Below, one piece after another: positions 16,627 through 55,502 of a stretch of 64,000 bases of DNA. How positions within the stretch are numbered: the stretch's first letter is position 1; every line of letters begins with the position of its first letter. The notes beneath the pieces were generated by a model. The model was not told where the DNA came from, searched no databases, and was given only the letters and a program-made list of their open reading frames with translations. Position numbers and translations under genes: made by a program. This DNA is from Henckelia pumila (lineage: Eukaryota > Streptophyta > Magnoliopsida > Lamiales > Gesneriaceae). The stretch lies in assembly GCF_033568475.1 (NCBI RefSeq), contig NC_133121.1, positions 2,170,001-2,234,000 of the forward strand, written 5' to 3'.

Positions 16627-17925
16627 TCAAGCATATTGTCTGTTCGTACCAATCACTTCATCTATGCCATCCATATTCTCTAAACTAAACTTTTCTTCAT
16701 CAAATGCCCTTCTGCCATTCAACTTTTTATTCCTCAAAATAACAACTGATTCCTTCATCAAATCGATGTACTTCTTTCTGACTTCTGCCAGAGGATGTGG
16801 TTCTATGGTCAGTTCATTGCCATAAGCCTCTTTCAGAATAACAGTGCAGGTTTTATTCTTCATCGACAAATAAAACATGTGTGGATGCCTCTCAAATGCC
16901 TTGTGAATCTTCTGCGGCAAACACAAGCATTTCCTCAGACATAAAAAGGCCTTTCTTTCCGCAGCATGCTCGACAAACAGACTCAACAACTCATGAAGCA
17001 ATCCCACGACCCGTTTCTCAGATAAATCACTGTCTGGTTTCAAGAAAGAAAAGTCATCGTAAGGGGAGACATAAGGGAGGCACTGAAATTCGTTTAACCA
17101 ATCATTTATCTTCTGTTTCAGCCTTAGTCCTTTAGAAGGAAACAATGGGAAAGCAATTGCCTCATCCGCACCACCATTATATAGGCCTTTCTTCATTGCA
17201 GTCTTCTGCATTTGCGACCAAAATTTCCCATCTTTATTATCGTCATTACCTTCAAAAACTGCCAAACCCTTCAGTCCATCTTCTATGTCCACTATGCGAA
17301 AACACTCACTATCTTTCACAAAATCTGAAGGGTCTTCCCAAAATTCATCAGGCAACCCTAAATACCAGTGCAAGCCTTTAATTACCTTCAAAGGAATCAC
17401 CTTTCTACCACCACTCATCAAGATAAGCTTCTTTAGCCTACCCATGATATCATCTTTAAAATTTTCATAAATCATTCTTTCCTCTTTATTAAGCTCAATG
17501 GCTTTCTGAGTCAGTCTAAACCAAGGCAAATTGTAAAGGGGCCCAGTAAACTCCTCAAAAAAAGAAGGATAACTCCTCAAGAACCTTGCCACTCTTATAT
17601 TTAAACCAAAATTTAAGCCTTTTTTGGAGACAGCTGAGATTGGAATACAATAGTTGTCATGAGGTGAAGAGGAAGAAGATAAAAAGAAGTTTTTCATCGA
17701 GATGATGGGCTTGAGTTGAAGAGATTTGTGAATGGAATCAATGGAGTCAAAGTATGAGTCTTTTTTCCATTTCATGCATACATTCACATGAGTTTGTTTC
17801 TGGATGTAGGAGTGCCAAGAGAGAGGAAGGATTTGGATTTGCGGAGCCGAGAAGAGAAGTTTGTGAAAGAAGACCATTTCAGGGTTTGTTATTTTCTTGG
17901 ACATTTTGTAGTAACAGCTGTGCAT
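16627..17925 (-). CDS. PORR domain (plant organelle RNA recognition) protein
   Basis: PORR proteins bind group II intron RNAs in chloroplasts or mitochondria and promote splicing. This one is a single uninterrupted exon of up to 432 residues. Family hallmarks include an N-terminal organelle-targeting region, the RVARFLRSYPSFFEEF block, the LTQKAIELNKEE segment, the LPDEFWEDPSDFV motif and the C-terminal PQKIHKAFERHPHMFYLS and TVILKEAYG motifs. Three in-frame ATGs lie near the start (17925, 17904, 17877). The third, beginning MVFFHKLLFS, gives the more typical mitochondrial presequence and a 416-residue protein. Length is close to the usual 390-450. Arabidopsis relatives include WTF1, WTF9 and RPD1; I cannot say which is the orthologue. 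The tail after the domain (residues 400-432) is unconserved in appearance. Confidence 0.9.
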   Translation of the reverse strand: MHSCYYKMSKKITNPEMVFFHKLLFSAPQIQILPLSWHSYIQKQTHVNVCMKWKKDSYFDSIDSIHKSLQLKPIISMKNFFLSSSSSPHDNYCIPISAVSKKGLNFGLNIRVARFLRSYPSFFEEFTGPLYNLPWFRLTQKAIELNKEERMIYENFKDDIMGRLKKLILMSGGRKVIPLKVIKGLHWYLGLPDEFWEDPSDFVKDSECFRIVDIEDGLKGLAVFEGNDDNKDGKFWSQMQKTAMKKGLYNGGADEAIAFPLFPSKGLRLKQKINDWLNEFQCLPYVSPYDDFSFLKPDSDLSEKRVVGLLHELLSLFVEHAAERKAFLCLRKCLCLPQKIHKAFERHPHMFYLSMKNKTCTVILKEAYGNELTIEPHPLAEVRKKYIDLMKESVVILRNKKLNGRRAFDEEKFSLENMDGIDEVIGTNRQYA

Positions 17926-19599
17926 TTTCAGAAACTCTTAGTGATTTTTCAAATTGAAGAAGATAGAAACGTTTAGGAAGGCCATATACTGATTTACAGC
18001 GGCTTAAATGGCATACTAATATACCTTCTTCTTTTTTACCCCAAAGGGCTAGCAATTATCTATCCCATATATAATATATGGGGTCGGGAATACTTGAAGC
18101 CAGCTGATAAATATGACAAGAAGCCAAGAAGGCCGAAGAGTGCAAAATTATAGCGAACAAAAGAATTTCTAATCTCACACAAGCTCGTATATTTGCAAGA
18201 GGGGAAATGATGGGAGAAAACCCGATTTAAGTGCCTTATTTTGGTCACTAAGTTCAAATGGTCTCGTTAAATTGAAATAGCCCAAACAAGTCCTCAGGAG
18301 ACAAGGGAGACTCCATCCACAAAAAGTTCCGCAACCAAATTCAGATTGGCATTTGAAGATCTAACACTAAAAAGTTCCGCCTTTCATCTTCCCGTAACAT
18401 GTGAGAGGTGACAGTACCCCTTTACACCTAAGCATAAAACTAATATTCATGAACTCAGAAAACTAAAAGCAACTGATATTTTAACGAATTCAGAAAAGGC
18501 TTGATCATCTTTCATCAACAGAAGAAGACCGAATACCTTATACCCCGATAAACCCGTCGAAGGTTCATTATTGAAATAATCAGCAATTAAATCCAGGAAA
18601 AAAAAACGAATTTCTTACTCCGAACCTAAAAAATCTTCGCCGCAAATCACGGTAGCAAACATTCATTTGTTTTAGAGCAAATCGAATATGAAGCCGCACA
18701 AATTTTGAGAAGTTGTAGATTACGCAGAATGGAGGTAACTGAAGAGAAGCAGCTTGAGAAATGAGAAGTTTAGGAAAAGTGTGAGGTCGGGAAATATGGT
18801 TTTATTTTTTTTATTTTTTTATTTTAAACCAATATGGTTTTATTTTAAAAATAAAAATAAACAAATTGAAGGATAGTATTTAAAAAGATTTCTTTCTTTC
18901 TTTCTTTCTTTCTCGAGTGAAAAAAATATTTCATTTTTCATTAAATTACTATTAGTTAACAAATATCACAAAAATGCAGCAATATTATGACGCTTCATTC
19001 TTAGGTTTAGAAATAAGTTATTTATTAAGGATATTGGTTACAAATAATTATTGTTGTTTATCTATAAAAAAGATTTTAACTTTAGTTTTATTTAAAGTTA
19101 TTATATCCTTTTTGGATGAAATTTGACCCCCTCATCTAATTGGGACTTATTGGGGCTTCTTCAAGACCTTTTACATTTAATCACCATAGTATGTTTTCCC
19201 ATCATACAAACACGTAGGTTGTATTATATAGATTTTTTTGAGCAACTATTTTGTATGGTATTGTAGCACATCCGAATCAGAGACTCATCTAGAGGTTTAA
19301 ACAAAATGAGCCCGAGTTGCGAGCTTTCCGAGAGTTCTAAAAACATTTGATTTGTATTCGATAGCTCATAGGTCATGCTTACATATTCGATTCGATTCAG
19401 TTCATTTATACGCCAATTTTTTTTTACCTCTGTGTCGTGCTTATTGGCAGGGTCTCTATCAGACCACTCACTCAATTTCTTTGAAAAGAAAAAAAGAAAT
19501 TTCATTACATATTCATTTGTTAAGATGGCTCTCTGATCTCAGAAGAAATTCATCTGATAATACAAGATTTTCAAATATTCAGAGGTCCCTAAACATTTT
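17926..19599. other. Spacer between PORR gene start and MMSDH 3' end
   Basis: Should contain the PORR promoter and leader on the minus strand (pyrimidine-rich minus-strand sequence near 18600-18780 looks like a 5' leader) and the 3' UTR of the dehydrogenase. A (TTTC)n microsatellite lies at about 18890-18913. No coding sequence was accepted. Confidence 0.5.
18890..18913 (+). repeat. (TTTC)n microsatellite
   Basis: About six uninterrupted tttc units are visible next to an AT-rich stretch. Likely length-polymorphic. Confidence 0.8.
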
Positions 19600-22500
19600 T
19601 CAAGACTTCTGGGAAGTTGGCATGGCGAGAGAAACTCCGCCACTTGGTAAATCCTTCCACTGCTGAGTCACAGTTTTGATCTGTGTGTAAAACTGTACTC
19701 CAGCCTTACCTGCAACCAAATGATACATCACCCAGTAAAACAAAGCGAAGATCGGGGCAGTTTAGCTCATGGAATAGACACACAATGCTAAACCATGAAA
19801 AGATGGTGAAAAAAAGGAACGACGAAATTTGTTTAGGCTGGGTTAGGCTGTGTGTTTAATGTGACGAAAGCGAGCGATTTTATTTGTGATGAAAGGATGG
19901 AGCTGAGTTTGTCTTACCGTAGAAATTGAGATCCCCTGCAAAAGATGCCTTGGAGCCAGTGAAGGAGAAGAAAGGCAGAGGAACAGGAATGGGAACATTG
20001 ATACCAACCTGAAGCAAAACAATTCAAGTCAATGTACGCTGGAAAATCAGTGGCGTACTGATGCTTTCTTGGGAAAACAAGGCACTGATTCTTTCTTGAT
20101 AATAGACGGTTTGAACTGACAATAATTCGAATCAAAGCCATGAAATAACTGAACTCGGAAAAAAAGACATGAAACAACTTAGTTACCTGGCCCGCCTCTA
20201 TCTCAGTTTGGAATTTCCTTGCAGCGAATCCAGACGATGTAAAAATAGCCGCACCATTCCCATATCTTAAAATTTTGGATGAGAGAGTCATGAAATTGCT
20301 CAAAGAAAGAATAACTTGACGATTAAAGAGACAAAAGAAAGTGGAAATACTTATTTTCGTTGACAATCTTTATAGCTTCTTCTATACTGTCAGCCTGAGA
20401 AAAGGAATTGAATTTAATAATACTTGGAAAGAACACATGATATGAAATATCATATGGATAATCAACGACATACCTGCATGCAAATGAGAACAGGACCAAA
20501 TATCTCCTCCTAGAAACCCACAATAAAAGAAGTTAAACATAAAACCCCCGACAAGATTCCCATGAACTTCATGAGATACAAGGAAAAGAACACAAAAAGG
20601 GGTACCTTGTAACACTCCATATCAGCAGTGACATCAGCCAAGATGGTGGGACCAATGAAATTTCCTTGTTCATACCCTGGAACCTATTACTCCCATGAAA
20701 GAAAAAGGGTAACCGTTCATTTAATCCATCCAAAGCTCTTCAAATTCATCATCTATTTCCAACCATGGGTACAAATACTTGAACAAATACAAAAGTAAAG
20801 CACATTTAGAGACACAATACTACTTATTTCACCAAACTGCATGTATATCTAGTATCTACCAAACATGATCAAATTAAATTAGTCTACTAGATGAAAATAG
20901 GTTCTACCCAAATTAAATTTGATGTTATTTTATGAAGGGCTTGTGGTCCAAGAAAAGATGTATAAACCCTTGCTGAAAGTATAACTTATGATTAAAACCT
21001 GAACACTTGGAGCATCTCATCAAGAAACTGGTCGACAACTCGAAAGCTGTAATACCAAGTAGCTAAACAAAAAAGTACCTTAATAGCTCTTCCATCAAGC
21101 AATAGTCTGGCCCCATTCTCAACCCCGCTTTGGACCAAATTGCATACTCTGTCCTTCGCCTAAGAATATAGATGCGAGTTAGAGAAACAAACACGCCAGA
21201 ACCAAAAAACAACAGATATCCGTACAAAATTTTCCAATTATCATGGCCTAATCATTGGAAATAGACAGCAAGATTGCCACTGCACTGACCTGCTTACTGA
21301 TGACTGGACCGAGGTCTGCCTCAGGATCTATACCAGTATTCACTTTAAGGGCTTTGGCACGCTCCACCAGCTTTTCTTCCCTACAAAGATCCAAATAGTT
21401 CACTGAACATGGAACTTCTGCTAAACTAGAACATACTAACAAAAGCAAAGATCTTTTGAAACAGACCACATAAGAGAACAGAAGCTTGTTTCACTTGACA
21501 AAGTAAAATCCTGGATTATAAATATTTTCTGAAACAAAATTTAAAACAGAAAATCATAAACTGAAAGACTGCCTTTCTGAGTTTTGCTAGTAAACCTTTG
21601 AGCAGTTGTTAAATGAAATGGATACAAAAAATGAAACGAACTGTGTGATGCACATCAAGAAAGAAGATTACCATGATTTCGAGCCCCCGACAAACACCAC
21701 TGTGCTAAGAGCCATGCACCTTTGTCCCGCGGCACCAAAACCAGCTGCAACTAAAGCATTTAAAGTTGCATCCAAGTTAGCATCAGGCATCACAATTCCA
21801 TGGTTCTTTGCTCCCATGTTGGACTGCAAGTGTTTGTTAGTTAGAAAGTTAATTTTAATTTCAGAAATAAAAGACACTTGAAACAAAATATGTCTGTGCA
21901 TAAAAAGAACATAAACATTATGCTCCAGAAATAGATTAACAGCAATGACCTGAACGCGTTTTCCACTAGCCGAAGCTCTCGAATAAATATGCATGCCAGC
22001 CTAACAAATGAGAATCAAAATCAGGTCCCTCAATATAACAGAGATGGAACCAATCGGTTGCCAGACAAACCATCCAAGATCAGAAAAGATGCTAAACTGT
22101 ATCCTCAGAATTGGAACATCACCGTACCAGATTGCAAAGAAGCTAACTAGCTAAGATAGGAACAAACAACTTATCGTAACATTTAAGCGCTAAATGGCCG
22201 TATTATATAGTACTATTGAAAAGTATTTTTGTTTTGCCGACATTATAGGGGAGATAGTATTTTGTAAGAGAGAGGTGTTAGACATCATAATTCTTGTCTA
22301 CCATCTTGCACAGAGTTGGCATCATGGTTCTAAAATTCGCTAGGCGCTAGTCGGGCGCCAGACCAGCGCCTAGCGCCTAGGCCGCCTAGGCGGGGACTAG
22401 GCGGCACTAGGCGGATTCCACGGTTTCAACTTAATAAATGAAATATTATAACTCCAAGACAATAATATCAAATTTAAAATGAGTTCAACATTTGAAGAAA

Positions 22501-25500
22501 GAGCAAACACCAATTTTTTCTTCAAATATGGCACTCAAAATGTGGGCTTCTTCATTCGCTTTAATTCTTCAGCCTTATAATTTGCGAGATGCTCTGGTTA
22601 CTCAATCATGTAGACAATGAAAGATGAATTTTGATCTAGGGCAAGCCAACGAATCAATTTTCTTGTCGTACATCAGTTTAGGGCTTATAAAACTTAAGCC
22701 CAACAAAAAAATTACATTTCGGTTTTTTTTTTTGTAATTTGGGTTTTGAATTTAAAAGCCCAAATTAAAAAAAAGAAATCTGAAAATCCTACCCTATTTC
22801 CGCCTAGCCCCGCCTAGGACCGCCTAGGCGCCAAGGCCGCCTAGGCCGACCGATTAGCATGTTTTCGGTGCGGCCACCCGGCGCCTAGCCCGAGTTTTCG
22901 AACACTGGTTGGCATAAAGAATGTTCGTGTTGCATCCTGCAAATTGGTCACTGACCCATTACCTTAATAGAAACTGCATGCATGTACTCGCCAAAGAGGG
23001 GAGATCGGGAGAGAGTCTGAATTTACGTGATGAATATGGGAGAAAAGGTCTCGGACTTGAAGACAGAGCACGTGGAACCAGCTCACATGTGGTCTAGACT
23101 AGAAGTTAGTGCCCAATAATTAGCAACAATTTTTAGATGTGTGAAGGGGTTGGTATATATGGTTTAGTGGTTTTCCTTGGGTGCCTGATTTTGTATCTGA
23201 TCCATTTCAACTCTATATAGTCAAATCACAAGTGACATGTGGATTATTTTGGGCGAAACTGACAGAATTTGGTGCTATTTATTTACAATTTGACTTCAGA
23301 TACATTCAGATTTTTAATCCACCTAACCAACTAAATTAGCAGAATGAAACTATAACCAGCAACAAAGAACTTCGCTTGAATAGGCAAAGTCAACTCAACC
23401 TGAAAGGTAAGTGTGACATGGATAGCTTCTTACATACCGTGTTTGAACCAACAAATGATACGGCCCTAATATCTTCATCATCACATATAGCATTAACCGT
23501 GTCCTGCACGAATGAGCATTGACATAAAAAGTATCAGATTTATAACTAATCAATAATATTTGCTCATACTCTGGTATTGGGCAAATGATCATTGTTTTCC
23601 GATTCAAAAGGATCATCGAAGGCATGATAAGGGAGTATAGATGATTACAAATTGAAAAACAGGAACGTACAGTCGTGCCATGAACAATGTTAAGGACACC
23701 ATCGGGCAAACCAGCCTCCATGGCCAATTCTGCAAGGATCATAGAAGCCCCTGAAAAAGTAAAAAAGGAAAAGCAGAGCAAAAATTTAGTGGCAAACCAG
23801 GCACTTAAATATTCAGAAACATTATGCAAGTAATACTTGTCAAATCGTTGAGGAAAAACTATGTAATACATTCACAACAAAGACTAACTAATACTAACAG
23901 TAATATAGAACAAAAGATCTGAAGCAAAGAGTCACCTGGATCTTTTTCAGATGGCTTAAGAACAAAAGTATTTCCACAAGTCACTGCAACCGGAAACATC
24001 TGGTACGAGACATTAGAAAAAGATGGCTTATTACCATGGAATGTTTTGAAATTTCATAAGATAAAATATAATTAATGATTATTAAACATAAGGAGGGCTG
24101 AATGTAGGATAAATGAAAGAATCAATCAAACTTAAAGATTATGTAAGATTGTAAGTATAAGAAACCAAAGGCAGATTTACCCATAACGGAATCATTGCAG
24201 GGAAGTTGAAGGGGCAAATCCCAGCACAAACACCAAGTGATTCTCTAATGCTGTAGGTGTCTATTCCATTTGACACATTGGAAACATATTCTCCCATCTG
24301 GAGAGTGGCCATTCCACACACATGTTCCACCACCTCTTCACAAAACCACCAAAAAAAAAGAACTCGAATCATTATATGTTCTCCAAAACAGTAAAATCAG
24401 CAAACACGTAGGTTACTAACCTAGACCACGGAACACGTCACCTTGAGCATCCTTCAATGTTTTCCCTTGTTCCGTGGTAATGTTCAAAGCAAGCTTATCC
24501 TAGCAAAAGTTATGTTCTGTTGAATTGATGCCATGGACATAAAAATAAATTATTTTCAAAGAAATTAAACCACTAACCATGTTCTTACGAATAAGATCTT
24601 GAAACTTTAACATTACGCGTTGTCTTGTTGTTATAGGGGTGCTCCTCCATGATGGAAATGCTTGTTTGGCAGCAAAAACAGCAGACTTGAACTCATCCTT
24701 TGTTGTAAGAGGCACTTGTGAAACCACTTCTTGTGTTGCCTGAGGTAAAATGACAAGTAATCAAAATGAAGGGCTAAAGAACTACAGGAAACTCACACAC
24801 ATATACAAACATAAAAAAAAATAAGAAGAAGAATTGCAATCATTTTCAGCATCTAAAATCACTTACCGGGTTTATGACATCAATTGAATCAGATGAATGT
24901 GAATCTACAAAGCTTCCTCCAATAAGATTCGGCACCCTCTGACACAAAAAGATAACGTAGACGTAATCCCCTTGAACTTCATCGATTAAAAAAAAGGCAA
25001 TGCAGTGCATAGAGGACACTACTGCCCATATTATTGTTTCATATTTTTCTTGATATTAATTTTTTTTTACTTCCATTTGCTTGTTGCCTTTTTAGTTAAC
25101 ATGCCACCATTTCAAAGTTCACCGGAAAAAAAACAAAAAAAAAAAAAGTAAAGTTCAAAGCAAGCACGCACCTTTATTGTTTGTGATCCATATTTCCAAA
25201 ATATGTTCTTTATTCAACCAATTAAAAAAGAAACCGGAAAGGGGAGAAAAAAACTCACAAGCGAGTTCCCATGCCTCCAGGATGGTTCAGCAGCAGTTGA
25301 AAATCCAGAATTCGAAATCCCAATTATCCCATAATTCAACCTCCTCATATTTCTCACTAAAATAAAACCAAAATCAAAATTAATTCATAAATGCATTGAC
25401 AGCATGAACAAAAATTTTGTAAACAAACATGAACAGAAACTCATCAATCAGCAAACCCATAAACAAAATCACCATAAATAAGCTTACCTCGTTGAACTGA

Positions 25501-26434: not shown

Positions 26435-29400
26435 CTAAAAGTGAAGGGTCCAATGTGATCCATCTAAAATGGGGATTGTTGAAGATATGCCCACACTACT
26501 TGGAATGTCCGTCGATTGTTCGACCAGAGACTCCTCGTCGTTGCCAGGGAAATCCTTCATAGACTCCCCTTCATGACTTGGAATATCACTCGGAAGCAAT
26601 GGCAAAGATACCCCTTCACCATTTGGGAAGTCCCTCAACTGCAAACCTAGGGGGCCATCATTACTTGTGAAATCTATGGAATGGAACGTACTGGGGTCTC
26701 CATTTTCACTTGGAGGATCATATGAAGCCAACGTTGATACACTGTTGCTTGGAAAGTCCTTCCATTTCTGAGTCACGGTTTTTATCTGTGTGTAAAACTG
26801 AAGTCCTGCTTTACCTGTAATTTGCGACATAAACGATAGGCAGTCAAAATGCTTATCGTACTTCGGCAGTCAAAATGCTTAGATAGATGTAACACACAAA
26901 CAAAACAACACAAACCAAAAAATTGCTCGGATAGATGTCATGTATTTGTGATGCTTTACCATAGAAATTGATGTCCCCAGTAAATGATGCTTTGGAGCCA
27001 GTAAAAGAGAATAAAGGCAAAGGTACTGGAACAGCCACATTTACACCAACCTAAAACCAATTAAATTAGCATGAGAGCTGAAAGCTACAAAACAATCTAG
27101 ATCAGTACACATTTCAGAATAGTAAAAGGTTGGATGGATATCCAGAAACGGATAAACTGCTTCTGCCTCGGGTGGAACGGTATTCAATTTAGTTGGATTT
27201 ACCTGTCCAGACTCCACCTCAATCTGAAATTTTCTTGCGGAAGCAGGGGATGATGTAAATATTGACGCGCCATTCCCATGTCTGCTCAAGAAAACAACCT
27301 CATCAGCCCAACATCAACCTACATAAAATGTTAAAACTCAAAACACCCAAGAAATTTTGGTACTTGTTTCTGTTTACAATTCCTATTGCCTGGTCCAAGT
27401 TCCCCACCTGAGCACAAGACGATGAATAGTTAATTGATAAAGACACATATGGGCCAAAAATTACATTAGACGTTTTCATTTTTCATATTTTATTTTTAAG
27501 TTAAGCAATACAATAGATCACCTTCATACAAAGAAGAACTGGGCCTAATATCTCCTCCTGCATGCAACAAGAGTATGGAGAGTCAAAAAATACCAGTTTC
27601 TGGATGCAAGCCCCAGAGGCAGCACCAAGCAGAGGTCAACCAAACCTAAAGTCATCACATCAAAAGCTATATACCTTGTAACACTCCATATCTTCGGTGA
27701 CATTAGTTAAGATGGTGGGACCAACGAAGTTTCCCAGCTCGTGTTTGGGGACCTGTTTATTCATCAATAAAAACTCCCAAGTAAATAAATATGTCCTCCT
27801 CACTTAACAATAGACACTTGATGGAAAAACTTTCATATACTAGGAAGTAAGAATTAGATTACTACAATGAGTCCAACTATCATATTCCAGTGATAGATTT
27901 GTTGAATTTCCAGGATATTAGGTCTTCGGTTCAAATCACTTTGGACGTGAATTTAAAATTTTTAAATAAGTACCTATATAAACTATACTTCAACGTGCAT
28001 TTAAAACAAGTATCTAATGCGATCTGCATATCAAATAGTATGAAGGAAAACAAAATCATGTTATCTATGTTTCTTCTTTTGTATCCGTATTTTTCATGTT
28101 TCTTTCTCTTATTCCATGTTAGTGTCGTATAAACGTGCGTTGTGTGAGGAGAGCCAGAGTACATATGTAACAATGTTATTTCGAAGGAGTTAAGTCAGCA
28201 TTATTATATTGCCACCGAATTACCCAAGAATTGTTCATACTGTCCATCGGAATGTATCAAGTATTATTTTGGATTTAATTACCGTAAGCAAGTGTCAGAA
28301 TAAGAGGAAATCTGTGGGGCATACCAAAATTTTTCTCCCATCAAGAATCAATCTAGCACCATTATCAACAAAAGTTTGAACCACTCTGGAAATTCGTTCA
28401 CTAACCTGCGCATATGGATAAAGAAAGCAAGCTTCTGCTCTGGTTACTTGTGATGAATTCTAATTGATATAATGTAATAACATTTCTCAACTTAATTAAA
28501 GCAATCCAACTACTTGACTACTAACAAAAACAAATATAATTGAGTGCACCTGCTTACTAATCACTGGACCGAGGTCCACGCCTGGTTCTGTTCCAGCATC
28601 TACTTTGAGAGTCATGGCATACTCCACTAGCTTATCTTCCCTGATGAAATTAGTTTTATCACTATTCAATTCAGAATTCCACACAAATTTGTTACAAATA
28701 GCATAAAAAAGAAATACTATGCATTGAAATAGTCACAAACCACGACTTAGAGTCTCCAACAAAAATGAGAGTGCTGATTGCTGTACACCTCTGTACTGCA
28801 GAACCAAGGCCAGCTGAAATCAAAGCTTTGAGTGTGGCATCCATATTTGCATCTGGCATGACAATTGCATGACTCTTGGCGCCAACATTCGTCTGAAGGG
28901 AACAATCAATGAACTCGAGAACAAATACATGCCAGAACAACTAAAAAGTTTGTGTTACCTGAATACGTTTGCTGTTGACAGACGCTCTTGCATGAATATA
29001 CATCCCTGGCTGGTACAGAAAAGCTAAATGAATATATAGATGTACCCCATTATTCCTTCATAGTCAACTCACAATGTAAATAAATGTGAGGTAAGGTGAG
29101 AACATGTCTCTACTTGTATATCTGAAGCAATTATCATCCTTCAAAATGTTTAATGGCCGATGAATGTAAAGTAAGCAAGTTAAATTATGAATCACAAGCA
29201 ACTACTTATGACAAAAAACTATCAAACCTTCAGCGCAGATCAAAGAACTGCAATTGGCATCGACAACTATCGGGTAATAAAATAGCACAATAGATTCCAC
29301 ACACTCTATCATTAATAAACACATGAAAACAGACTCACTGCATCTGAACCAATATATGACACAGCTTTGATTTCCTCGTCGTCACAGATGGCATCAATGA

Positions 29401-32400
29401 CATCCTACAAAGATATAAAGGACATGGGATAAATAGCAGTTAGAAAAAATCTCACACGAACAGATTTACCTACAAGCAAAGCAACAGATCTCAACGATTT
29501 TCAGGAAGTTACTAAGTAATATTTTAATGAAAAAGAAAATCCCTTCCAAATTGTGATACTGTAAATATATACTAATATTTGCAGTTTAATATGGGATCCA
29601 TGGGCTTATATTAAATTCCTGTGTGATTGATTGCAATGCTAGTTCATTTTTATTCAAGCATGCTCTGCATCATATATATGAAATACCATAATAAGATACT
29701 TTCTCATTCCAAGTTCAACATCTATTCCTAAAAGCTTTTACTTTCTGTCACCTTCAAGCTAATGATAAAAAATTTCCTAAGTTCTCCTATTTTACACACT
29801 TTCATCTGGTGGGACTCGAAACCCAAACTTATGTGCTTAGAAGTAAACTAATCCAGCATTGTACTTATTAATCAGCCACTAAAACTTTAATCCAACATAA
29901 AAAGCCAATCATTAACCAATTTTAAATAAATACTATATCAGCCACTTAACTAGTCTCGTGTGGTCCATTTATGTTATAGAATTTTAGTATTTATCCTATC
30001 CAGAAAATACTCAAATCCCAAGTTCTTATCAAAGAACTATTGATCGATGAACACATACTTTGCTACTACGGTCGCAGTGATGCAGCATTTTTAAGATCGC
30101 ACCTTCCAATGGAATAAAGCCGAACAAGATTGCATCGATGGTTTGACGAATCGAACAAACCATTCAACAGAGCATTCAATCTTATCCTGAATTTTTTTAT
30201 TTAACTTGAAAATGAGTTTTGAGACTGGATTGATTATTAAACCCACTAAGCTAAGCTCAAGCAACTTTAATCAAGTCAGTGGCGATCTGAGCTCAGGTGA
30301 ATCTAGTTTTTGAAATCGATATCAATTTTAGCATATAAAAACAACCTCACGCCAAGCTTCAAAAGGCTTATCGAACAATAAAAGTTTAACTTGATTTGTA
30401 ACGCATAACAACTTGATTTTGGACAAGCTTTTATAGGTCAATCTTGAAATGTATTTAGCATAGCTTAATTCTTAGAAACGTCATTTGCCATCGTAAAAGG
30501 GGACATAATCCACTTAGGCTTCAATGAGCTTACATTGCTTCCTTGAATAACATTTAGGACACCATTCGGAAAACCAGCCTCCATTGCTAACTCCGCAAGA
30601 AGCATACAGGCCCCTGAAAGCACAAATGAGGGAAAAAGTGGCTATATTTATTGGCGTTCTCTAAGAAAAAATTAATCGTATGAATGTAAAAACTACAAGC
30701 ACATCAAAGTAAAGAGATCGCCGTTACCTGGAGCTTTCTCTGATGGTTTTAGTATAAAGGTATTACCACATGTAACAGCAATTGGAAACATCTGGAGAGA
30801 AACAGATGGCAATAAGTAAAAATATATATTTTATTTTAAAAAGTACAAGACATAAAAAGAGTACAAAAATATATTTGATAGCAGAGACGGACTTGATTCC
30901 AAATCCTCAATAATAGATGTATATTGTAAAGGCGTTTCTATTTCATTTTTTATAGATCTGCTGAATAACTTGACTAAGGCGCTCCTTCCTTTTCTTGCAT
31001 AATCATCTGTGATCCCCTTTTATTTGAGACGAGCTTATACCACACAGGCAAGGTTCAATAAATCTGAGAAGTATTCATCGCCAACAGTTCACTAAAATTT
31101 GGTCGATAAGATGTTTGGTCCTTTGAATATGAAGCTGATTAAATAAATGCAGTTTCCTTGTCCTTTCCTGATTTCACCTTTAAATACTGAATCTACAGCG
31201 ATTTCGACAATTTCTTGGATGTAGGTTTGTTTGGCTTTATAAATGGCATTTGAGTTAGCAAGGAAAAAAGCAATTTCCTTTCAAAAAGAGGTTCCTTTGC
31301 ATCTGTTGTCGAAATAGTGAATCTAACAAAGTGCATTCACAACATACAAAATTTACAGGGACACGGTGAAAATATTTAAGATATCAAACTGAGTGAGCAG
31401 AAGACCCAAAACACAGCATACAAAAGGAATGATCAGAAACAAACACAGCATACCATCAATGGAATCATGGCTGGAAAGTTGAAGGAGCATATCCCAGCAC
31501 AAACACCTAAAGGCTCGCGAATGCTATAAGTATCAATGCCAATTGAGATATTTGAAACAAAGTCCCCAATGTGCATGTTTGCCATTCCGCAAGCATTTTC
31601 AACAAGCTCTGTAAAACAATTTTATATCAACATGTTCAATGGGCAACAAACTAAATGAAGAATTTTGAATATGCTTGAATTTTTAAAATGATTATTTTTT
31701 CCTTCTTAAGGCTTGGTACCATCACCTAAGTAATGCGGAAAAACCTTTGGAAAGAAGATCCAAGTAAGTTCACATTTCATTGTCTTGTTCCCAAATCCCA
31801 ATAAAGTTTCACAAACATATAGGCAGATAGAGAAATCCCTCACCTAAAATAAACACAAATTTAATCAATTACCCAACTCTATTCATCTATTTAAGTCTAT
31901 ATTTTAATCCCTGAATTTCAAATCAAAGTTCTCTAGGGCCACTCAACTCAAGTTACAAAAGAAAAATGAGGAAACTCACCGATGCCGCGAGACACATCAT
32001 TAAACGCATCCTTTAAGGTCTTACCCTGCTCTGCTGTTATATTGCTGGCAAGCTTGTCCTATAAAATGATAGATACATTCATGTTACTAAATAAGTAAAT
32101 ATCTAAAACAGAGATTTAAGATGTGATATTGCTTGCTCACAATATCTCGACGTATAAGCTCCTGCAGCTTGAACATAATGCGCTGGCGAGTTGTAACCGG
32201 GGTATTTCGCCACGATGTAAAAGCTCTTTTTGCAGCAAACACTGCAGCCTTAAGTTCCTCTGGCGTTGATAAAGGAACTTGGGCAACCACTTGCTGCGTT
32301 GCCTACAAGTTTGTATAGAGTGTCAGCATAAAATTCTTGCAAAATGACAAGTGGTGAAATTCACAGTCTCAGCACTTACAGGGTTCAACACATTGACTGA

Positions 32401-35292
32401 TGTTGATGATTGTGAATCAACAAATCTCCCACCAATGAAATTTGGGACTCGCTGCAAGATTAGTTAGAAGAAAGTCTAAAATCTAACATTGGGTATTCTT
32501 TAAATCAAAGTACTACTTCGTTGCTGACATGAGATAACCGAAGGATGAGCAATCAAAAGTAATAAGAAATTAGAATATGGGAATAAATAATGCAGTCATT
32601 GTAGTGTGATAGATATATGGCCTCTGGTATGGTTTAATATATTTAATTAATTTTGTGTATTTTCTTGCAATGAGCAAAATACACCAACTGTTATGGAATT
32701 AAAATACTCTTCTTTGAAATTAAATTACAATTATGGATTAAAAATTACACTTTGGATACAATTCCACAATATATATTTTACTTTCCAATATAAAAACCAG
32801 TTCTTACTAATTTTTCCAATAATTTCTTTAAATTAATTTATTTCTTTTTTCGGCTACCATAAATCTTGAAATACGTTTTCACAATTCAGCCATTATAAAT
32901 TTATCCATCTTCATTTTAGCTAATTAATATTGTGATTAAAATTAAAGAATAGAAATAAAATTTCATCAAGGATTTACTAGTATGAAGTATGAACATAATT
33001 ACAACCAAAAATATAAATGTTTCCATTTTTAACATACTATATTTCTATTAATTGATCACATAAATACCAATTTAAATAACATTTAATAAATGATAGCATA
33101 AAATTTTTATTGATTTGTCCATATTTACCATAAAACATCATTACTAATACATGATATATTTTACTCTCCAAAATATTTTTATTTAACTTCAATATTTAAT
33201 ATCTTTCTTCGCGGCCACTCTCATATGATTTACTGGGGCCTTTTCATTGTAAAACAAGGATAAATATGCAATATTATACACATTATTCATGGATCAGTAG
33301 TTAGGAGATGGAGCATCTCACATCTGCCAAAGAATTTCTTCACATGACAGCATAACAATTGCTAAAGGGCCCAAGGTTTCTCAAAGATTGAGTCAAACGT
33401 TAGATGGCGAAGGATTTGAAGATTTTCCTTTCCTTATTCGCTACACCAAACAGTAACTAAATAGATGACAATCAATCATGGCACACAGAATCCAAATAAT
33501 AAGTTATCATAGTGTTCATAATTACATCTCTCAGTGCACATTTACATGAGAGAATCTAAACAAGGTGGTAACACATTTTCTTTCATGTGCAATCATGATT
33601 GTTAACAAATAGACAATGCAATTGAAATTCAACAACTTTTACCAGAAATTAGTATAAATAACTTCTCAAAGCTTCAATGAGGAATTGTGTTCCTCAAACA
33701 AGCCTCCAATAGAATTATAGTAAAAATAAAAGAAAAAGTCCTTAACTTGGTGATGGAAAACAATTTTATATAATTTCCGAGTTGAACTAAGTGAAATTAC
33801 CAAAGGATACCGTTTCTTCCACGATGGTTCGGAAGATGTGGAAGGTTCAGGATTTCCCTGAGTGCCTGTAGGAGAATTAAGTGTCTTCAATCTTCTCACT
33901 GCAGCACAATACATGAAGAAGGTATTTAGCAAATAGGCAGCTTATGGTGCACAAGAAAAATCAGCCCCGGCGACATATTAACATAACCCCTCAAGTTTTA
34001 AAATCAGATGTGTTTGACAGTTTAAGTATTGATAGTCCAGGAAATCGAAATCAAAGCTTATATTGCATAATCCCCTATGTGATATTACTAAAAAACTCTC
34101 TTGTTTCATTTTAATAAAATTTGAATGACTTCTTGTAATATACTCAATCTATTCACTCATCCATGCAAATGGTTGAAGGTTGTATTGAAAAATAAGCATA
34201 TTTAACCTTTCGGCATTTGTACGTCTGCGTGACGTTAATGGAACATTACATGTTGCCAATTTCTCCTTTCACCATATTCTTACCATTTCAAAGTTAACGC
34301 AAGAATATGTTCTTCATTGTTTATGTGTCAAGTTTACTAAACAGAAGCTTGATTACTTGGTCATCTGACTAGGTAGGTTTTTTAAAAAAATATCCATGTA
34401 GGTTTGATTTTCTCCTAGTCCACCTTCATCTGATATGGTACTTTTCAAAAACTTGGTCAAAGTTTTTCATTTCTGTTCCCGTATCACAAGGAGGCCACTA
34501 CTCCACCGATATGATCTCTCCTTAAAATTCAGTGTCACTTCAAAAATTAAAAATTGAAGGAATCCCATTAATTTTTTTTAAAAAAATTTTGTGGTCTTAA
34601 ACAACTACAGATACATGAGATGCCCAAAAAAAAAAAAAGAAAAAGGCACTCAACACGCTCGTACAGTAGTATTCCAACAAAGTAACCAATTCAAAACATA
34701 AGTGGTACTGGCCAACACAACATAAAAGTGATGGTAAAGAACATTAAATGTTAAAGACACCTGTAAGATTCCCTTGCCGGAGCTTTGCCTTAACGTTATA
34801 TATATGCTTTGGTGTCGATAGAATCTCAGGGTTAGTTTGTCGAAGTCTTTTTAGTATTTGGCGTGGTTTTAGACCCGATTCGGTCATCTCTTTGATTAGC
34901 ACCACTTCTTTCTCATTAAAACGACGAGCAGATGGATGTTCTGTCATGTTCTTCATTGGTTCATGATTATGTGAACCGTTCTTCACTGTGAGAACCCATA
35001 AGCCATCCTCCTTCTTACCCACAAGTTCGAAAGGACAGTTTGTGAGTCGAGAGCCTGATTTCCTCTTGCGCATATGTTCACCAGTGACCTCATCAATGAG
35101 CTTACGCCTATCTCGGTAGACGCCTCCTCTGTCGCAACCAAGGACAACTACTTTCTCTTTTTTTGACTGTTTAATGGTGACCACATATCCCTGGGAGATA
35201 GCAAACTCCCCCACATGTTGAATGAGTTCTTCACGATCAATGAAACTCCCGGGTGGAGGAGGGAGCATCTGTGGAGATTCATCTAACTCCAT
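26435..35292 (-). CDS. FAR1-type zinc finger fused to an MMSDH/ALDH6 enzyme
   Basis: A second MMSDH copy with a foreign N-terminus. Coding exons on the minus strand: 35292-34761, 33898-33801, 32451-32380, 32302-32141, 32058-31980, 31608-31454, 30791-30728, 30613-30534, 29404-29339, 29009-28959, 28892-28741, 28640-28550, 28405-28325, 27752-27675, 27557-27522, 27407-27364, 27281-27203, 27050-26960 and 26814-26435. Phases close for 796 residues. Residues 1-177 form a FAR1/WRKY-GCM1-type domain with Cys53, Cys86, His108 and His110 as likely zinc ligands, rich in Lys/Arg. From residue 178 it aligns with the neighbouring enzyme, and all 17 internal exons match it exactly in length. Catalytic Cys489 is kept (VQRCTAIST); the usual PFNFP is SFNFP. 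The last about 105 residues are a repeat-bearing tail. The exon 1 donor (ag|gtgtct) is weak, and the first exon alone would end after 182 residues, so a separate FAR1-like gene remains possible. An ATG at 33932 could start a form without the finger. Confidence 0.72.
33801..33932 (-). promoter_or_regulatory. Possible alternative first exon of the second MMSDH copy
   Basis: Reading through the acceptor of exon 2 into the preceding intron, the frame stays open to an ATG at 33932. The resulting start, [20 protein letters not shown], is hydrophobic then basic, like a mitochondrial presequence. A transcript begun inside the 862-bp intron would give an enzyme without the zinc finger. This is inference; no promoter element was identified. 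Confidence 0.35.
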
Positions 35293-37262: not shown

Positions 37263-40200
37263 TCAGTGAACTGGGCAGCCATCTACTGATATGCCTTTAG
37301 CCGTCGGGCATGTCGCTAGCGGGCAGTGTTCGCCTTCGGCGCCCCACCAATTTAATGATATGTTCTCTATTCCCAGTGAAAAGTACAGCAACACTGCCAT
37401 GAAAGCCACACCAGCATCCATAGCCGCGGAAACGATATAATTATATCTCTGCCACCACTTTTTACGGTACCGGAAAATAAAGAAGTTGAAAATGGTGCCA
37501 ACAATGATCCATGCATTGTAGTTGAGTGGTGTTGCTGCTGGCATGTAAGCTGTCGCTCCGAGAAGGACAGGTAAGTTAACTAGCGGAATCCAAGATTTTT
37601 CCGGGAAGGCCCTGTGGAAGAGCCAAACTATTATTGGTCCTATCGCGCCTCCAAGAAAGAACCAGTTCATAGAACTGTAGTCACCGAGTCTGCCAAAGAT
37701 TCGTCTTGGCCCTACTAAACCCCATATGACTGATGCATCAAAGAAGACACGATCACCAGGGCACGTCCATGGACTGTCCAGTGGAAGTAGATCGTCGTGG
37801 CATATGTTCTTTACCGAGGTAAGTAGCCACCAAGCAACGCCAATGTTGACTGTGCCAGCAATGATTGTTCCTATGAACTGGTGGAGGCATTTCAAATATT
37901 TTAATACACACTTGATCCTCATGTGATTATATTGAATCTGTTTGAACGAATGAACAATTAAATTTACCTGAACGATGAACATCGATCTTGGAGGGATCTT
38001 CATGTAGTGACCGAGCTTGAAATCGCTGAGGAAAGATACAGCCTGTGTCATGCTAATGTAGCCAAAGGTTTTGAAGCAGACGTTAGCTATTGGTCTTCCA
38101 GGATATATGATACCCATAACATACTCCGTGATAATATTCAAACCAGGCGTCTGCAAATAAAACACGTTAGTTTCAACACGAATTTAACTAGAACGATAAA
38201 ACGCTTGGATTTTTTAGTATTAGGATTCTTTTTATGTTTGTATCTGCGCTCGCAGGTGCACTAGTATATGTTCTAGCTAGCTAGTATTTAAACGAAGGCC
38301 TCGCAATTTAGTCTCGAGTTACCTGATTGGTTGTGGCTGTGATTATGCTGATCGGAAGTGTGAAAATAAAGGCCATGACACACGCAAAGAGGAGACCCCA
38401 CCATGGCATCTGAACTTGGTCTTTCAGAAAGATACAAAGAATTAAAGATGCTCCAATTGTTACTGCCAATAGCACATAAAACCACCACGAAGGTATATCT
38501 TGGTATCTCTTCATAAGCCTCGTGTGAATATCCTCTTTTTGCTTGTAGGAAGCACGAAATCTTCCGTATATTTCCCTGCATAACACAGTTAATCCATTCT
38601 TAAAAATGTATTCCTGAAACCGGCGAAGCAAATGAACAAAAGATGCATAAAATTAAACATACCTTCCGTAGAAACAGGCGACATGAGTAAGAGTAGAAGC
38701 AATCGTAGCAAAACCGAACCCATAACTCAGGGCGAAAAACATGCTGAGATGTATCCGTCCCTGCTGTTCGTAACTATTCACATCCAACTCGAACTTGTCG
38801 TTAACTATAGCTGGTATGTTGTACTTCTGACCCTGTGCTGTGAACAAGTGTGATGAAAAAATAGGAAACTTTCGAGCGCCGTATAAGTCGAACCCCCAGT
38901 AAGCCACAGGGAGTGCTACATAGATTACCAATGCATAGCCCGCAAAGATGTTCATAATCGAAAAGAATGGGGAGATGAGAGGGCTAAACAAGAACGATGC
39001 TACAACTGTCCAGTCTAATGTTACGGCACCAAGGCCAAGTCCACGCATCCCAGATCCAATCTGTTGAGCTGTAACGGATTTCGGAAATATCCAACAGATC
39101 CATGAAATGGTTGAGAGAGTTGGAAAGAGGTATCCCGGCATCACATACCACGAAAAGCTGCAAATTAGTACGATAAGGAAGAACTTTGCCCGAGACATGC
39201 GCTCCTCGTCCTTTTCATGCAAGGCCCTGGGAAATTTAGATGCTCTGGTTACTGTTTATGACTTTGAACAGAGATATGTAAGAAAACCACAACGGAACAT
39301 CGGAATGGAAATAGTAGTTTGCTGTAGTACAGCCTACAAATTCGCGCAGAAGTACATCCCGGCAACGCTTCATCCATTGAAATGGGATGGAGAAATTCAC
39401 AAGTTCATGGTTCATAATGAATAATGCAGGGTAGAAACTCATGCACGTCATTTAATATCTAATCCCCTGCACTGTTCAAAATGTCAAATTTAAGGCTCTA
39501 CCGTTTGGTTATGGGATAGTTCTACTTCCAACGATGTCCCATGATCGATCTTTTTAGAGGCTACACTCGAGTCTTACCAAGACTTTCGAATTTTATTGAA
39601 GATAAAGTGATGATGAAAGGTTTGAAGATACAGTAGATTCTTGATCTTACTAGTGTCAATGCAGCAATCAGCATTGCATTTTGGTGTATCAGAGTATCAT
39701 TTCATTCAAGTGAGTGCTTTCTTTCACTGAAGAAATGGCTCTTATTTTATCAAAGTCTAATTATTAAAATCCATCAAATTTATAGAATAAAGCAGTCGTT
39801 TAAAAACTTTTAAAATAATTAGATAATAAATAATAAAATTCGAAACTATTGTTATTAATCTTTCAACAGCATGCACGCAGCAACACAGTATATAGCGAGC
39901 CGAGAGTTTAACTCTCTATTTTAAGACAAATTTGTCCGCCTAGGTGCTTACGGGTTGGTCAAAGTGTCTCCCAAGATAGAACGTTATCTCCAACTTCGAT
40001 TAGTAGCACTACAAAATCGAAGCACTACGAACACTTGAAAATGTTTACGAAACTCAGACTCGATATGAGTATGCAAAAGAAGAAAAGAGAATTCAGAAAT
40101 GAGCGAGTTGGAATGAATGGGGAGAGGTCTATTTATAGACGTTGGAATGCTGCTCGATGGGTTGCATCACTTCAGACGTATCGGTTCAGTCGAAGAGATG

Positions 40201-47901: not shown

Positions 47902-48171
47902 TATTGTGAAAAAGTAAAAATTTACGGTAAAAAGTAAATATTCCAAAAACTCAAAATATATCAAACTCTACACTTTATAATATTTTTCTCTCAACTTCAA
48001 TTGTATTTTTCATCACAAATGAAGACCTATTTATAGATCCACATTTGAAATTAGTCCAAAAATTAAAACATCATCATCTACATCATCACACACTAATTTT
48101 CCACATTTTACAACTCAATATTCAACATTCAATATTCAATATTCAACATAATAATAATATATTTTTCAACA
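47902..48171 (-). repeat. Left LTR (3' LTR) of the copia fossil
   Basis: 270 bp, near-identical to 53973-54242. Followed inside the element by a purine tract on the minus strand. Confidence 0.9.
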
Positions 48172-48336
48172 CTCCCCCTTGTGATGATGACCGTGATATG
48201 ATGACTGTATTCATTACGTATTTTATACTGCCTCGTTAAAAACCTTACTAGGAAAAACCCAGTGGGATAAAAACCATAGTAAGGGAAAAAGAGTGCAGCC
48301 ACGTAAACTCCCCCTCATGTTAACATGAGTGATTCT

Positions 48337-53018: not shown

Positions 53019-53130
53019 TTTATTAGTTAATTTCCATTAATATGACAATACAAAATAATGGATAAACGAAGATTACAAGTGCGTATACAAATAGAGAAAA
53101 AAGGCAAACACTTGTATGCAACCGTTGCAC

Positions 53131-53251
53131 GGGTCATATTCGTGTGACGGGTCTCTTATATGGGTTATCCATTAAAAAGTATTACATTTTATGTCAAAAG
53201 TATTACTTATTATTATAAATATGGATAGGGTTGACCCGTCTCACGAATGAG
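53131..53251. mobile_element. Small inverted-repeat MITE inside the copia fossil
   Basis: A 121-bp insert is flanked by an exact 10-bp duplication, accgttgcac (53121-53130 and 53252-53261). Ends are inverted: tcatattcgtgtgacgggtc on the left against ctcattcgtgagacgggtc on the right (reverse complement). Duplication length suggests the Mutator-like class. It lies between the 5' LTR and gag of the retroelement, so it is younger than that insertion. Confidence 0.75.
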
Positions 53252-53972
53252 ACCGTTGCACAGGAGTGTTACTCGAGAAAAAATAGGTGGTGGAAAATCG
53301 CTGGTGAGTACAAAACTCGTGAACATGATGATCATAGTCGTTATGAAAAATATCCTTAGAAAAGCCAAAAACTCCATCTTCTTTTTCGAAAAAAAAACCG
53401 AGGAGAATGTTTTGAGATGAAGAATGAATTTTGGTGTGATTGAGAATGAGTTTGAGTGAACATATTTATAGGCAAAAAACTAGCCGTTTATGACCGTTTG
53501 TGACCGTTGAGGGTAAGAAAAAAATGATTATGTGTTGAATAAAAATTCGTGATAATCATGTGATGCGTATAATGATAATCATAATTAAATATACGCAATA
53601 AAATATATATCATATCACGTTATTATAAGGTCAGTGTCCTAGACAACCTCTTATATAATAACATGAAATTATATATTGATATAGTTAGTATATATACATA
53701 TATCATATCACGTTATTGTTTAAAAACCTTAGAGGCTTTTATACTTGTCGTATCCCTTACCGGGAGTGTGGGATGTCGTCTTAACATCCTCCCAGGATTT
53801 ATAACAAGTTTTTAAAAACTAATTTTTTTTTCATAACATGATAATATATATTAAATATATACACAATAAACAATAAAATAATTATTCTTACTTGTTGAAT
53901 ATTTTTGACTTCTTCTTGTATTTTGGATCGTCGGAAAATATAGAGAACCTTCGAGCGATCGTGCTGATAACG

Positions 53973-54242
53973 TGTTGTGAAAAAGTAAAAATTTACGGTA
54001 AAAAGTAAATATTCCAAAAACTCAAAATATATCAAACTCTACACTTTATAATATTTTTCTCTCAACTTCAATTGTATTTTTCATCACAAATGAAGACCTA
54101 TTTATAGATCCACATTTGAGATTAGTCCAAAAATTAAAACATCATCATCTACATCATCACACACTAATTTTCCACATTTTACAACTCAATATTCAACATT
54201 CAATATTCAATATTCAACATAATAATAATATATTTTTCAACA
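53973..54242 (-). repeat. Right LTR (5' LTR) of the copia fossil
   Basis: 270 bp, near-identical to 47902-48171, followed on the right by the cccac target duplication. Confidence 0.9.
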
Positions 54243-54247
54243 CCCAC

Positions 54248-55359: not shown

Positions 55360-55499
55360 AGATTTTGATATTGTGAGCACCCATAATGTGCACTTATGTG
55401 TGCACCGCTGACGTGACATCCTCTACATCCAATAGATAAACGCCACATCAACAGGTGCACTCATAAGTGCACATGATAGGTGCTCATAATATCAAAACT

Positions 55500-55500: not shown

Positions 55501-55502
<2 letters not shown>

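Follow-up and report, generated by a model that had tools for sequence, protein, structure and literature searches.

Bacterial PutA combines a ribbon-helix-helix domain with proline dehydrogenase and P5C dehydrogenase, and its DNA binding is switched by metabolic state. In vertebrate host-transposase fusion genes, a transposase DNA-binding domain is spliced to a host domain. The yeast iron regulator Aft2, which has no enzyme domain, carries a zinc domain that we take to be of the WRKY-GCM1 type (4lmg). ALDH6 enzymes, for their part, are tetramers. Within plants, the excerpts of published work used here describe the FRS/FRF family (FHY3, FAR1, FRF1-4) as bearing an N-terminal C2H2 domain of the WRKY-GCM1 type and of transposase origin; according to the same excerpts, Arabidopsis has FRF proteins with nothing but a FAR1 domain, and competition between FRFs and FRS proteins for DNA sites has been proposed.

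The window (the whole stretch of DNA analysed, 64,000 nt) contains two ALDH6 (methylmalonate-semialdehyde dehydrogenase, MMSDH) genes arranged head to tail, the ordinary copy lying 922 nt downstream of the stop codon of a copy with a FAR1-like first exon:

26435..35292, minus strand: FAR1-ALDH6 fusion gene, 19 coding exons, 796 aa
19600..25512, minus strand: neighbouring ordinary ALDH6/MMSDH gene, 19 exons, 537 aa

The fusion resembles PutA in placing a DNA-binding domain, whose DNA binding is here predicted, on an enzyme of the aldehyde-dehydrogenase superfamily; PutA differs in its ribbon-helix-helix domain, proline pathway, bacterial setting and unrelated origin, and Pfam finds no PutA domain set in the fusion. 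Vertebrate fusions mostly have a transcription or chromatin domain as their host partner; here it is a metabolic enzyme. Such a partner also sets the fusion apart from FRS proteins, as do a FAR1 score below the Pfam cut-off and the lack, at E 0.01, of any Pfam match to a MULE transposase core or SWIM domain along its 796 aa. With ALDH6B/MMSDH enzymes (the neighbour; human ALDH6A1, 8xxq) it has in common the ALDH domain, a match to the MMSDH model and the catalytic Cys and Arg, and with the neighbour gene also its intron positions; it departs from plant ALDH6B/MMSDH in having no presequence exon, and in its FAR1-like first exon, acidic tail and 27 private changes.

Gene structure and the first exon

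Exons 2-18 are of equal length in the two genes (17/17), and length differences are confined to the first exon (25 nt in the neighbour and 532 nt in the fusion) and the last (110 and 380 nt, respectively). Both first exons end in phase 1 and complete the same joint codon, G/TG, followed by AGA. In the fusion gene an in-frame TAA lies immediately 5' of the ATG, intron ends are GT-AG and the frame is open across 19/19 exons. A first-pass annotation had described a 532-nt FAR1/WRKY-GCM1-like exon standing in place of the 25-nt presequence exon, with the phase of the exon it replaces, and 796 residues open through 17 internal exons and a longer last exon; coordinates, both exon lengths, phases and frame were all re-derived and agree with that description. 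As a gene structure, the observation of a FAR1-like exon placed in frame with MMSDH is confirmed. The 5' part of the gene comprises the following features:

34761..35292, minus strand: exon 1, 532 nt, phase 1 end, with the ATG and the FAR1/WRKY-GCM1-like region
34960..35208, minus strand: Pfam FAR1 match, residues 29-111, containing Cys53, Cys86, His108 and His110
35059..35070, minus strand: RKRK basic cluster, residues 75-78, candidate nuclear localisation signal
34777..34914, minus strand: block predicted to be helical, following the zinc domain, residues 127-172
33801..33898, minus strand: exon 2, 98 nt, homologue of exon 2 in the neighbour

Exon 1 looks coding. Taking the stop frequency of the fusion gene's own introns (0.068 per codon), its 182-codon open frame has a chance probability of 2.5e-6, and its codon usage reaches +0.30 bits per codon, the highest value among 161 overlapping intron chunks of equal length being -0.27. 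A coding signal was found for exon 2 and the C-terminal tail as well. Exon 2 of the fusion encodes a polar linker with two acidic residues, whereas that of the neighbour encodes an Arg-rich, acid-free presequence.

The four zinc ligands named in the first-pass annotation are all present, in the order C-C-H-x-H (C53, C86, H108, H110). The Pfam FAR1 model (PF03101) scores 21.9 bits with exon 1 and 18.6 with the whole protein, below its curated cut-off of 28.1; the earlier call of a FAR1 domain therefore stands for the ligands and the FAR1/WRKY-GCM1 likeness but not for Pfam strength, and the label 'FAR1-type' rests on the ligands, weak Aft2 matches and knowledge of the family. Aft2 is the best PDB match of exon 1 by both sequence and fold, each weak. 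The sequence search placed the yeast Aft2-DNA entry first at E 0.37, with Cys, Cys, His and His aligned. AlphaFold gave a poor model of exon 1 (mean pLDDT 50.6; 71-73 at residues 131-160 and lower elsewhere), and Foldseek with this low-confidence model returned Aft2 in its top three rows (E 0.007, rmsd of about 12 Å), with unrelated KA1 domains close behind at E 0.018 and zero matches at E <= 0.001. The candidate nuclear localisation signal was called by a simple four-residue rule, by which the neighbour protein has no basic cluster. Gene structure, open frame, coding signal and zinc ligands are thus directly supported.

Intron 1 and possible alternative products

Two features lie between the FAR1-like exon and the remainder of the gene:

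33899..34760, minus strand: intron 1, donor CAG/GTGTCT; if retained, the protein stops after 182 aa
33912..33914, minus strand: ATG, the only one of 22 between 34743 and 33899 that is open into exon 2

The donor had been flagged as weak (gtgtct). This idea was rejected, as CAG/GTGTCT ranks 28/36 among the donors of both genes (1 = weakest; score 7.85) and is the highest-scoring GT of the first-exon ORF. The acceptor of intron 1 ranks 17/36 (1 = weakest). With intron 1 retained, exon 1 reaches its own stop at 34744.

Splice sites and intron-1 stop are well placed for one gene to yield both forms, a spliced fusion and a 182-residue FRF-like competitor at shared DNA sites, arising by intron retention or early polyadenylation, with an ALDH-only form that could come from an internal promoter; the competition suggested for FRFs, in the excerpts cited above, would suit this arrangement, which we nevertheless consider unlikely. 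Two separate genes are, in our judgement, improbable: a stand-alone 182-residue FRF-like FAR1 protein, with intron 1 unspliced, and an ALDH6 copy that starts independently, for example at ATG 33914 or in a small first exon elsewhere. The exon's own stop speaks for this arrangement, as do the FAR1-only FRF proteins described for Arabidopsis in those excerpts and ATG 33914 itself, which reads MYCAA into exon 2 and at which a FAR1-less form could begin; 3/22 ATGs between 34743 and 33899 precede a possible phase-1 donor, although with poor scores (1.3, 2.4 and 3.3). Against it, the best GT of the exon-1 ORF lies at its end and in the required phase, and the acceptor tract overlaps ATG 33914, which would give a polar N-terminus with two acidic residues, unlike a presequence. 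In addition, a poplar tandem copy tabulated at 713 aa is close in size to the fusion without its long tail (697 aa). The first Met past the exon 1/exon 2 junction is residue 277. Since it falls within the ALDH domain, translation of the ALDH part requires a start further upstream.

The ALDH6 part and its C-terminal tail

The remainder of the protein divides into an enzyme domain and an extension:

26735..32451, minus strand: ALDH6/MMSDH domain, exons 3 to 19 (part), with Asn358, Lys381, Arg488, Cys489 and Glu589
26435..26734, minus strand: acidic C-terminal extension, 99 residues plus stop, in the enlarged last exon

Pfam reports Aldedh in the 796-aa protein, together with FAR1 and SatD, both below cut-off, and nothing else. 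The MMSDH subfamily model TIGR01722 scores the fusion at 635.2 bits, its cut-off being 448.5. Between the ALDH parts of fusion and neighbour, dN is 0.21 and dS 1.89, near saturation, giving a dN/dS of about 0.11-0.16. As a yardstick of conservation we used the best 80 of 595 bacterial ALDH6 loci, a narrow set (mostly Pseudomonas, Burkholderiales and Acinetobacter) from which the ORF best matching the neighbour was taken per locus. Residues C489, R488, N358 and K381, which presumably have the catalytic roles of ALDH enzymes, are identical in 80/80 of these bacterial enzymes (best 80 of 595), the human enzyme and the neighbour; Glu589 is also kept. At 27 columns invariant in the best 80 of 595 bacterial enzymes, human ALDH6A1 and the neighbour, the fusion alone has changed; the neighbour alone departs at 3 otherwise invariant columns. 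Changes in the fusion include P356S, W366M, G486V, M490T and F591L, of which the first, second and last presumably lie close to the active site, and positions 486 and 490 flank Cys489. G486V removes the Gly three residues before the catalytic Cys, which is part of the ALDH cysteine signature. For the ALDH part, a low dN/dS of the pair is observed, as is an accelerated change of the fusion in columns that are otherwise invariant, its catalytic Cys being retained. The tail looks coding, less clearly than exon 1: a 98-codon frame would stay open by chance with a probability of about 1e-3 at the intron stop frequency, and a Pfam search with 95 residues of the extension gave no match.

An ALDH score far above the MMSDH cut-off would suit an extra-mitochondrial ALDH6-like enzyme with the FAR1 part as a tolerated passenger, but the four intact zinc ligands, the basic cluster and the alteration of the ALDH part around its active site (the five substitutions above) make this distinctly improbable. 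A decaying chimeric pseudogene, non-functional and open by chance, could account for the 27 private changes, some beside the catalytic Cys, but is very improbable given the dN/dS with dS near saturation and the five retained active-site residues, to which the 19/19 open exons with GT-AG ends and the long paralogues retained in several plants, as tabulated in survey excerpts, may be added.

Origin, relatives in other plants and proposed role

The first-pass annotation explained the exon by capture of a transposase domain. This is supported in part: frame and splice sites fit a transposase-like domain joined in frame to a host domain; the transposase source is putative, and no donor transposon was found in the window. 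The 64,000 nt hold no second FAR1 copy (a chance match at E 4.5 only), intron 1 has no ORF of >=60 aa wholly inside it on the gene's strand, and 11 pairs of inverted repeats around exon 1 (16-22 nt, mostly A+T-rich) include none convincing as transposon ends. Scans of viral contigs with exon 1 and exon 19 found no relatives. Just short scattered matches to a neighbour-type presequence exon were found near the fusion gene, in a test of low power, in which even the homologous second exon scores no better than E 0.49.

Excerpts of published genome surveys tabulate long ALDH6 paralogues in poplar, cotton, melon and grape, and 5/7 of those with a stated location are predicted to be nuclear. The proteins (PtALDH6B5, PtALDH6B7, GhALDH6B2A/D, GhALDH6B3A/D, melon CmALDH6B1 and VvALDH6B7) are enlarged like the fusion, 6/8 exceeding its 796 aa. 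In poplar and cotton, long copies lie in tandem beside a normal copy, as in the fusion locus. The poplar pair comprises proteins of 542 aa (predicted mitochondrial) and 713 aa (predicted nuclear), with a Ka/Ks of 0.113. The cotton pairs, in an order identical to ours, have both genes on one strand; a protein of 539 aa is paired with one of 825 or 705 aa, whose gene lies upstream and which is predicted to be mitochondrial (825 aa) or cytoplasmic (705 aa). For melon, proteins of 537 aa (predicted mitochondrial) and 1043 aa (predicted nuclear) are listed, both with 19 exons, the long gene being of low expression. Grape ALDH6 exons are near-identical except that the first and last vary, and the tandem grape copy has just 571 aa. 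The excerpts on sorghum, Arabidopsis, Brassica rapa and liquorice list no long ALDH6, so the long gene appears to be missing from many plants.

As these paralogues were compared by lengths, exon counts and predicted locations rather than sequences, a FAR1 domain in the long poplar, cotton, melon and grape proteins is something we infer; the swap of presequence for DNA-binding domain may be old and shared with other plants. Of the initial picture of a lone oddity in one gene, the fusion itself holds and its isolation does not, the tables suggesting an old lineage kept in several plants; the fusion thereby gains in credibility and looks less like a local accident. A literature search found no publication joining FAR1 to plant ALDH6. 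One Silene publication was considered as a precedent and set aside, the excerpts used here listing FAR1 and aldehyde dehydrogenase as separate genes.

Overall, the explanation that we regard as probable is a real, selected FAR1-ALDH6 gene with a nuclear product acting as scaffold or sensor, and not an annotation accident; an old nuclear FAR1-ALDH6 protein is most likely. In one member of the ALDH6 tandem pair, a first exon with a FAR1/WRKY-GCM1-like domain, such as Mutator-like transposases carry, would have taken the place of the 25-nt presequence exon, with one 796-residue protein as the result. Because there is no presequence exon and a basic cluster is present, the predicted destination is most likely the nucleus. 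The ALDH6 part would probably be an oligomerising scaffold, offering several FAR1 domains to DNA, and would probably retain binding of NAD+ and perhaps of CoA or an aldehyde; contact with DNA may in this way depend on metabolite state. In-vivo splicing, a nuclear destination, binding to DNA, tetramer formation and sensing are predictions, and moonlighting or metabolite sensing by the fusion protein is a hypothesis. A wider proposal, tentative and on present evidence somewhat doubtful, is that a family older than the split of the main eudicot lineages, tabulated only as long ALDH6, may be a transposase-derived nuclear regulator in which an ALDH6 tetramer has taken over from the former core and multimerises FAR1 DNA-binding domains, and promoter binding depends on NAD(H), CoA or methylmalonate/malonate semialdehyde, an exon-shuffled plant counterpart of PutA.

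If confirmed, this would be a plant case in which a transposase DNA-binding domain was captured by an enzyme of primary metabolism and kept over a long evolutionary span. It would also explain an anomaly of ALDH6 length and localisation that several genome surveys, in the excerpts used here, list without a reason, and would tie gene regulation to the breakdown of branched-chain amino acids in a way that can be tested.

Gene structure of the tandem ALDH6 pair

Two ALDH6 (methylmalonate-semialdehyde dehydrogenase, MMSDH) genes lie head to tail on the minus strand of the Henckelia pumila window, with 922 nt separating the stop of the upstream gene from the start of the downstream one. The annotated features are:

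2348-2863, FBPase-like gene (Pfam)
4998-5702, KH-domain gene (Pfam)
16627-17937, PORR-domain gene (Pfam)
25512-19600, minus strand, ordinary ALDH6/MMSDH gene, downstream; 19 exons, 537 aa
35292-26435, minus strand, fused FAR1-ALDH6 gene, upstream; 19 exons, open frame of 796 aa
37263-42376, OPT oligopeptide transporter gene (Pfam; 37263-38652 by eye)
47904-54248, retrotransposon-like unit with four separate minus-strand ORFs, flanked by 274-nt direct repeats

The direct repeats (47904-48177 and 53975-54248) are 99% identical over 274 nt, and the ORFs between them presumably represent Ty1/copia gag, integrase and reverse transcriptase, judging by eye. Long AT dinucleotide runs with large potential hairpins occupy 55475-55946. 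Intron 9 of the ordinary gene contains a G+C-rich stretch (22350-22900) packed with GCCTAGGCG-like motifs, while the other introns are AT-rich; it is possibly an inserted mobile element, and no repeats of at least 40 nt were found within it.

Exons 2 to 18 of the two ALDH6 genes match exactly in length (17/17), and the length differences are confined to exon 1 (25 nt in the ordinary copy, 532 nt in the fused copy) and exon 19 (110 and 380 nt). In both genes exon 1 ends in phase 1, and the junction codon is the same, G|TG followed by AGA. The first-pass annotation, which had a 532-nt exon replacing the 25-nt exon in the same phase and a frame open for 796 residues across the 19 exons, was correct in both respects. 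As read from the DNA, a fusion gene is well supported and very probable.

At intron stop frequency, the 182-codon frame of exon 1 would remain open with a probability of 2.5e-6, and the 98-codon C-terminal tail (26435-26734) with one of about 1e-3. A codon-usage model trained on the coding sequences of both ALDH genes gave +0.30 bits per codon for exon 1 in its own frame, +0.20 for exon 2 and +0.16 for the tail, compared to at most -0.27 for all 161 overlapping 531-nt intron chunks and at most -0.14 for all 167 of the 300-nt chunks. The coding evidence is less clear for the tail, because one of its reverse frames reaches +0.15. It is acidic (pI about 4.05), and by eye a D(F/I)P motif seems to recur loosely along it, resembling degenerate short repeats.

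The exon 1 donor (CAG|GTGTCT), previously described as weak, scores 7.85 and ranks 28/36 among the donors of both genes (1 being weakest); only 9 of the 552 GTs in the region score as high or higher, true donors included. The acceptor of intron 1 ranks 17/36 on the same scale. Since the first Met past the exon 1/exon 2 junction is residue 277, within the ALDH domain, the ALDH part needs an upstream start. Between 34743 and 33899 there are 22 ATGs, of which one (33914) is open into exon 2, reading through the acceptor, and three precede a poor phase-1 donor (scores 1.3 to 3.3), so that a small alternative first exon there appears unlikely.

The putative zinc domain of exon 1

Pfam FAR1 matches exon 1 with E 2.9e-4 and AFT with E 0.003 (18.3 bits, under the cut-off of 21.6). 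In a phmmer search of the PDB, Aft2 (4lmg) is the top but weak hit (E 0.37), aligning the putative ligands Cys53, Cys86, His108 and His110 with Cys, Cys, His and His of Aft2, which we take to be its zinc ligands. The AlphaFold model of exon 1 is poor (mean pLDDT 50.6), with four main strands followed by helices. Foldseek with this low-confidence model gave no match at E 0.001; the leading hits were three Aft2-DNA chains, with E 0.007 to 0.009 and an rmsd of about 12 Å, followed by unrelated KA1 domains (E 0.018 and 0.063). Taken together, these weak signals and the four ligands point to a divergent zinc domain of the WRKY-GCM1 type. The FAR1/WRKY-GCM1-like domain first proposed keeps its four ligands, but its FAR1 score (21.9 bits) falls under the Pfam cut-off of 28.1. 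Past this domain, the model predicts helices at residues 127-172 (34777-34914), possibly a helix-turn-helix-like second DNA-binding unit; a Pfam search of 34761-34962 returned no match.

According to the available text of two papers, FRS proteins bearing such a zinc domain derive from transposases (PMC6000157), and plant MULE groups carry FAR1 (PMC6446971). Pfam found no transposase core in the 796-aa protein, and intron 1 holds no ORF of at least 60 aa lying entirely inside it on the gene's strand. Neither a second FAR1 copy in the 64-kb window nor convincing inverted repeats near exon 1 were found.

Divergence of the ALDH part

The two copies are identical at 349 of 520 locally aligned residues. 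Their dN and dS are 0.209 and 1.888 by NG86, and 0.218 and 1.362 by LWL85, giving dN/dS of about 0.11 and 0.16, respectively; dS is nearly saturated. Against the MMSDH model (cut-off 448.5) the fused copy scores 635 bits and its neighbour 746. As a yardstick of conservation for human and both plant copies we used 80 bacterial ALDH6 enzymes (the best 80 of 595 loci). Among 227 columns invariant across the bacterial enzymes, human and both plant copies agree at 148, the fused copy alone departs at 27 and the neighbour alone at 3, the remaining 49 showing departure in human or in both plant copies; at a 95% threshold the counts are 283 columns, 171 agreeing, 30 fused-only and 5 neighbour-only. 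With human as reference, a relative-rate count over 482 sites gives 64 to 22 for the two plant copies. The fused copy retains Cys489, Arg488, Asn358, Lys381 and Glu589, and has private changes P356S, W366M, G486V, M490T and F591L.

Long ALDH6 proteins in plants and a candidate nuclear role

Other plants were compared through published tables of lengths, exon counts and predicted locations, not sequences, as given in the portions of the surveys available. In poplar, PtALDH6B3 (542 aa, best prediction mitochondrial) is in tandem with PtALDH6B5 (713 aa, best prediction nuclear), with Ka/Ks (0.113) and Ks (1.44) near those of the H. pumila pair; PtALDH6B7 (958 aa) is predicted nuclear (PMC4409362). 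Cotton has two pairs, GhALDH6B1A (539 aa) with GhALDH6B2A (825 aa, predicted mitochondrial) and 6B1D (539 aa) with 6B2D (705 aa, predicted cytoplasmic), both laid out as in H. pumila, the long copy lying upstream of its partner on the same strand with about 1.3 kb between them; 6B3A (1072 aa) and 6B3D (1134 aa) are predicted nuclear (PMC5425181). Melon CmALDH6B2 (537 aa, predicted mitochondrial) and CmALDH6B1 (1043 aa, predicted nuclear, low expression across surveyed organs) each have 19 exons (PMC11510909). Grape ALDH6 genes have nearly identical exons apart from the first and last. A chestnut paper describes widely varying family 6 lengths in a set of 139 proteins from six species, and gives 1065 aa for the longest chestnut ALDH without naming it in the text available (PMC13273040). 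The survey texts give no long form for sorghum (540 aa), Brassica rapa (1.584 kb), liquorice (510 and 483 aa) or Arabidopsis, whose longest ALDH (726 aa) is from family 18; common bean has a single ALDH6 gene named, and potato has StALDH6B1 (19 exons, at most 717 aa) and StALDH6B2 (88 aa). By these survey lengths, several eudicots therefore have a long ALDH6 that others lack. Layout, protein size and predicted location lead us to infer that the long forms elsewhere carry a FAR1 domain. Longer versions of the acidic tail might account for the 1000-residue paralogues.

In the main texts of openly licensed papers we found none joining FAR1 to ALDH6/MMSDH in plants and none with PF03101 and PF00171 together. 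No title among the matches listed for FAR1, aldehyde dehydrogenase and MULE or domestication concerned a FAR1-ALDH pair, and no openly licensed co-mention of FAR1 and ALDH6 was on plants, judging by title and abstract. The available part of a Silene paper mentions FAR1 and aldehyde dehydrogenase as separate genes; the main text of a grape FRS family paper lacks aldehyde and ALDH. The domain pair may already be visible in annotation databases.

Residues 1-31 of the neighbour contain five Arg and no acidic residue; the counterpart in fused exon 2 (residues 178-204) is polar with two acidic residues. The first exon of the fused gene encodes a basic RKRK cluster, which the neighbour lacks. We propose that the fused protein would most likely be in the nucleus, where its FAR1-like domain would contact DNA and its ALDH6 part would multimerise the protein and bind cofactor. 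Retention of intron 1 would yield a 182-residue FRF-like protein, and such a product may arise in this way. Nuclear DNA binding is moderately supported by the sequence and somewhat probable. PutA, an ALDH-superfamily enzyme carrying a DNA-binding domain, can act as a metabolite-responsive regulator; metabolite sensing by the fused protein is a tentative and rather doubtful hypothesis. As a proposed case of transposase-domain capture, the fusion has an unusual partner enzyme.
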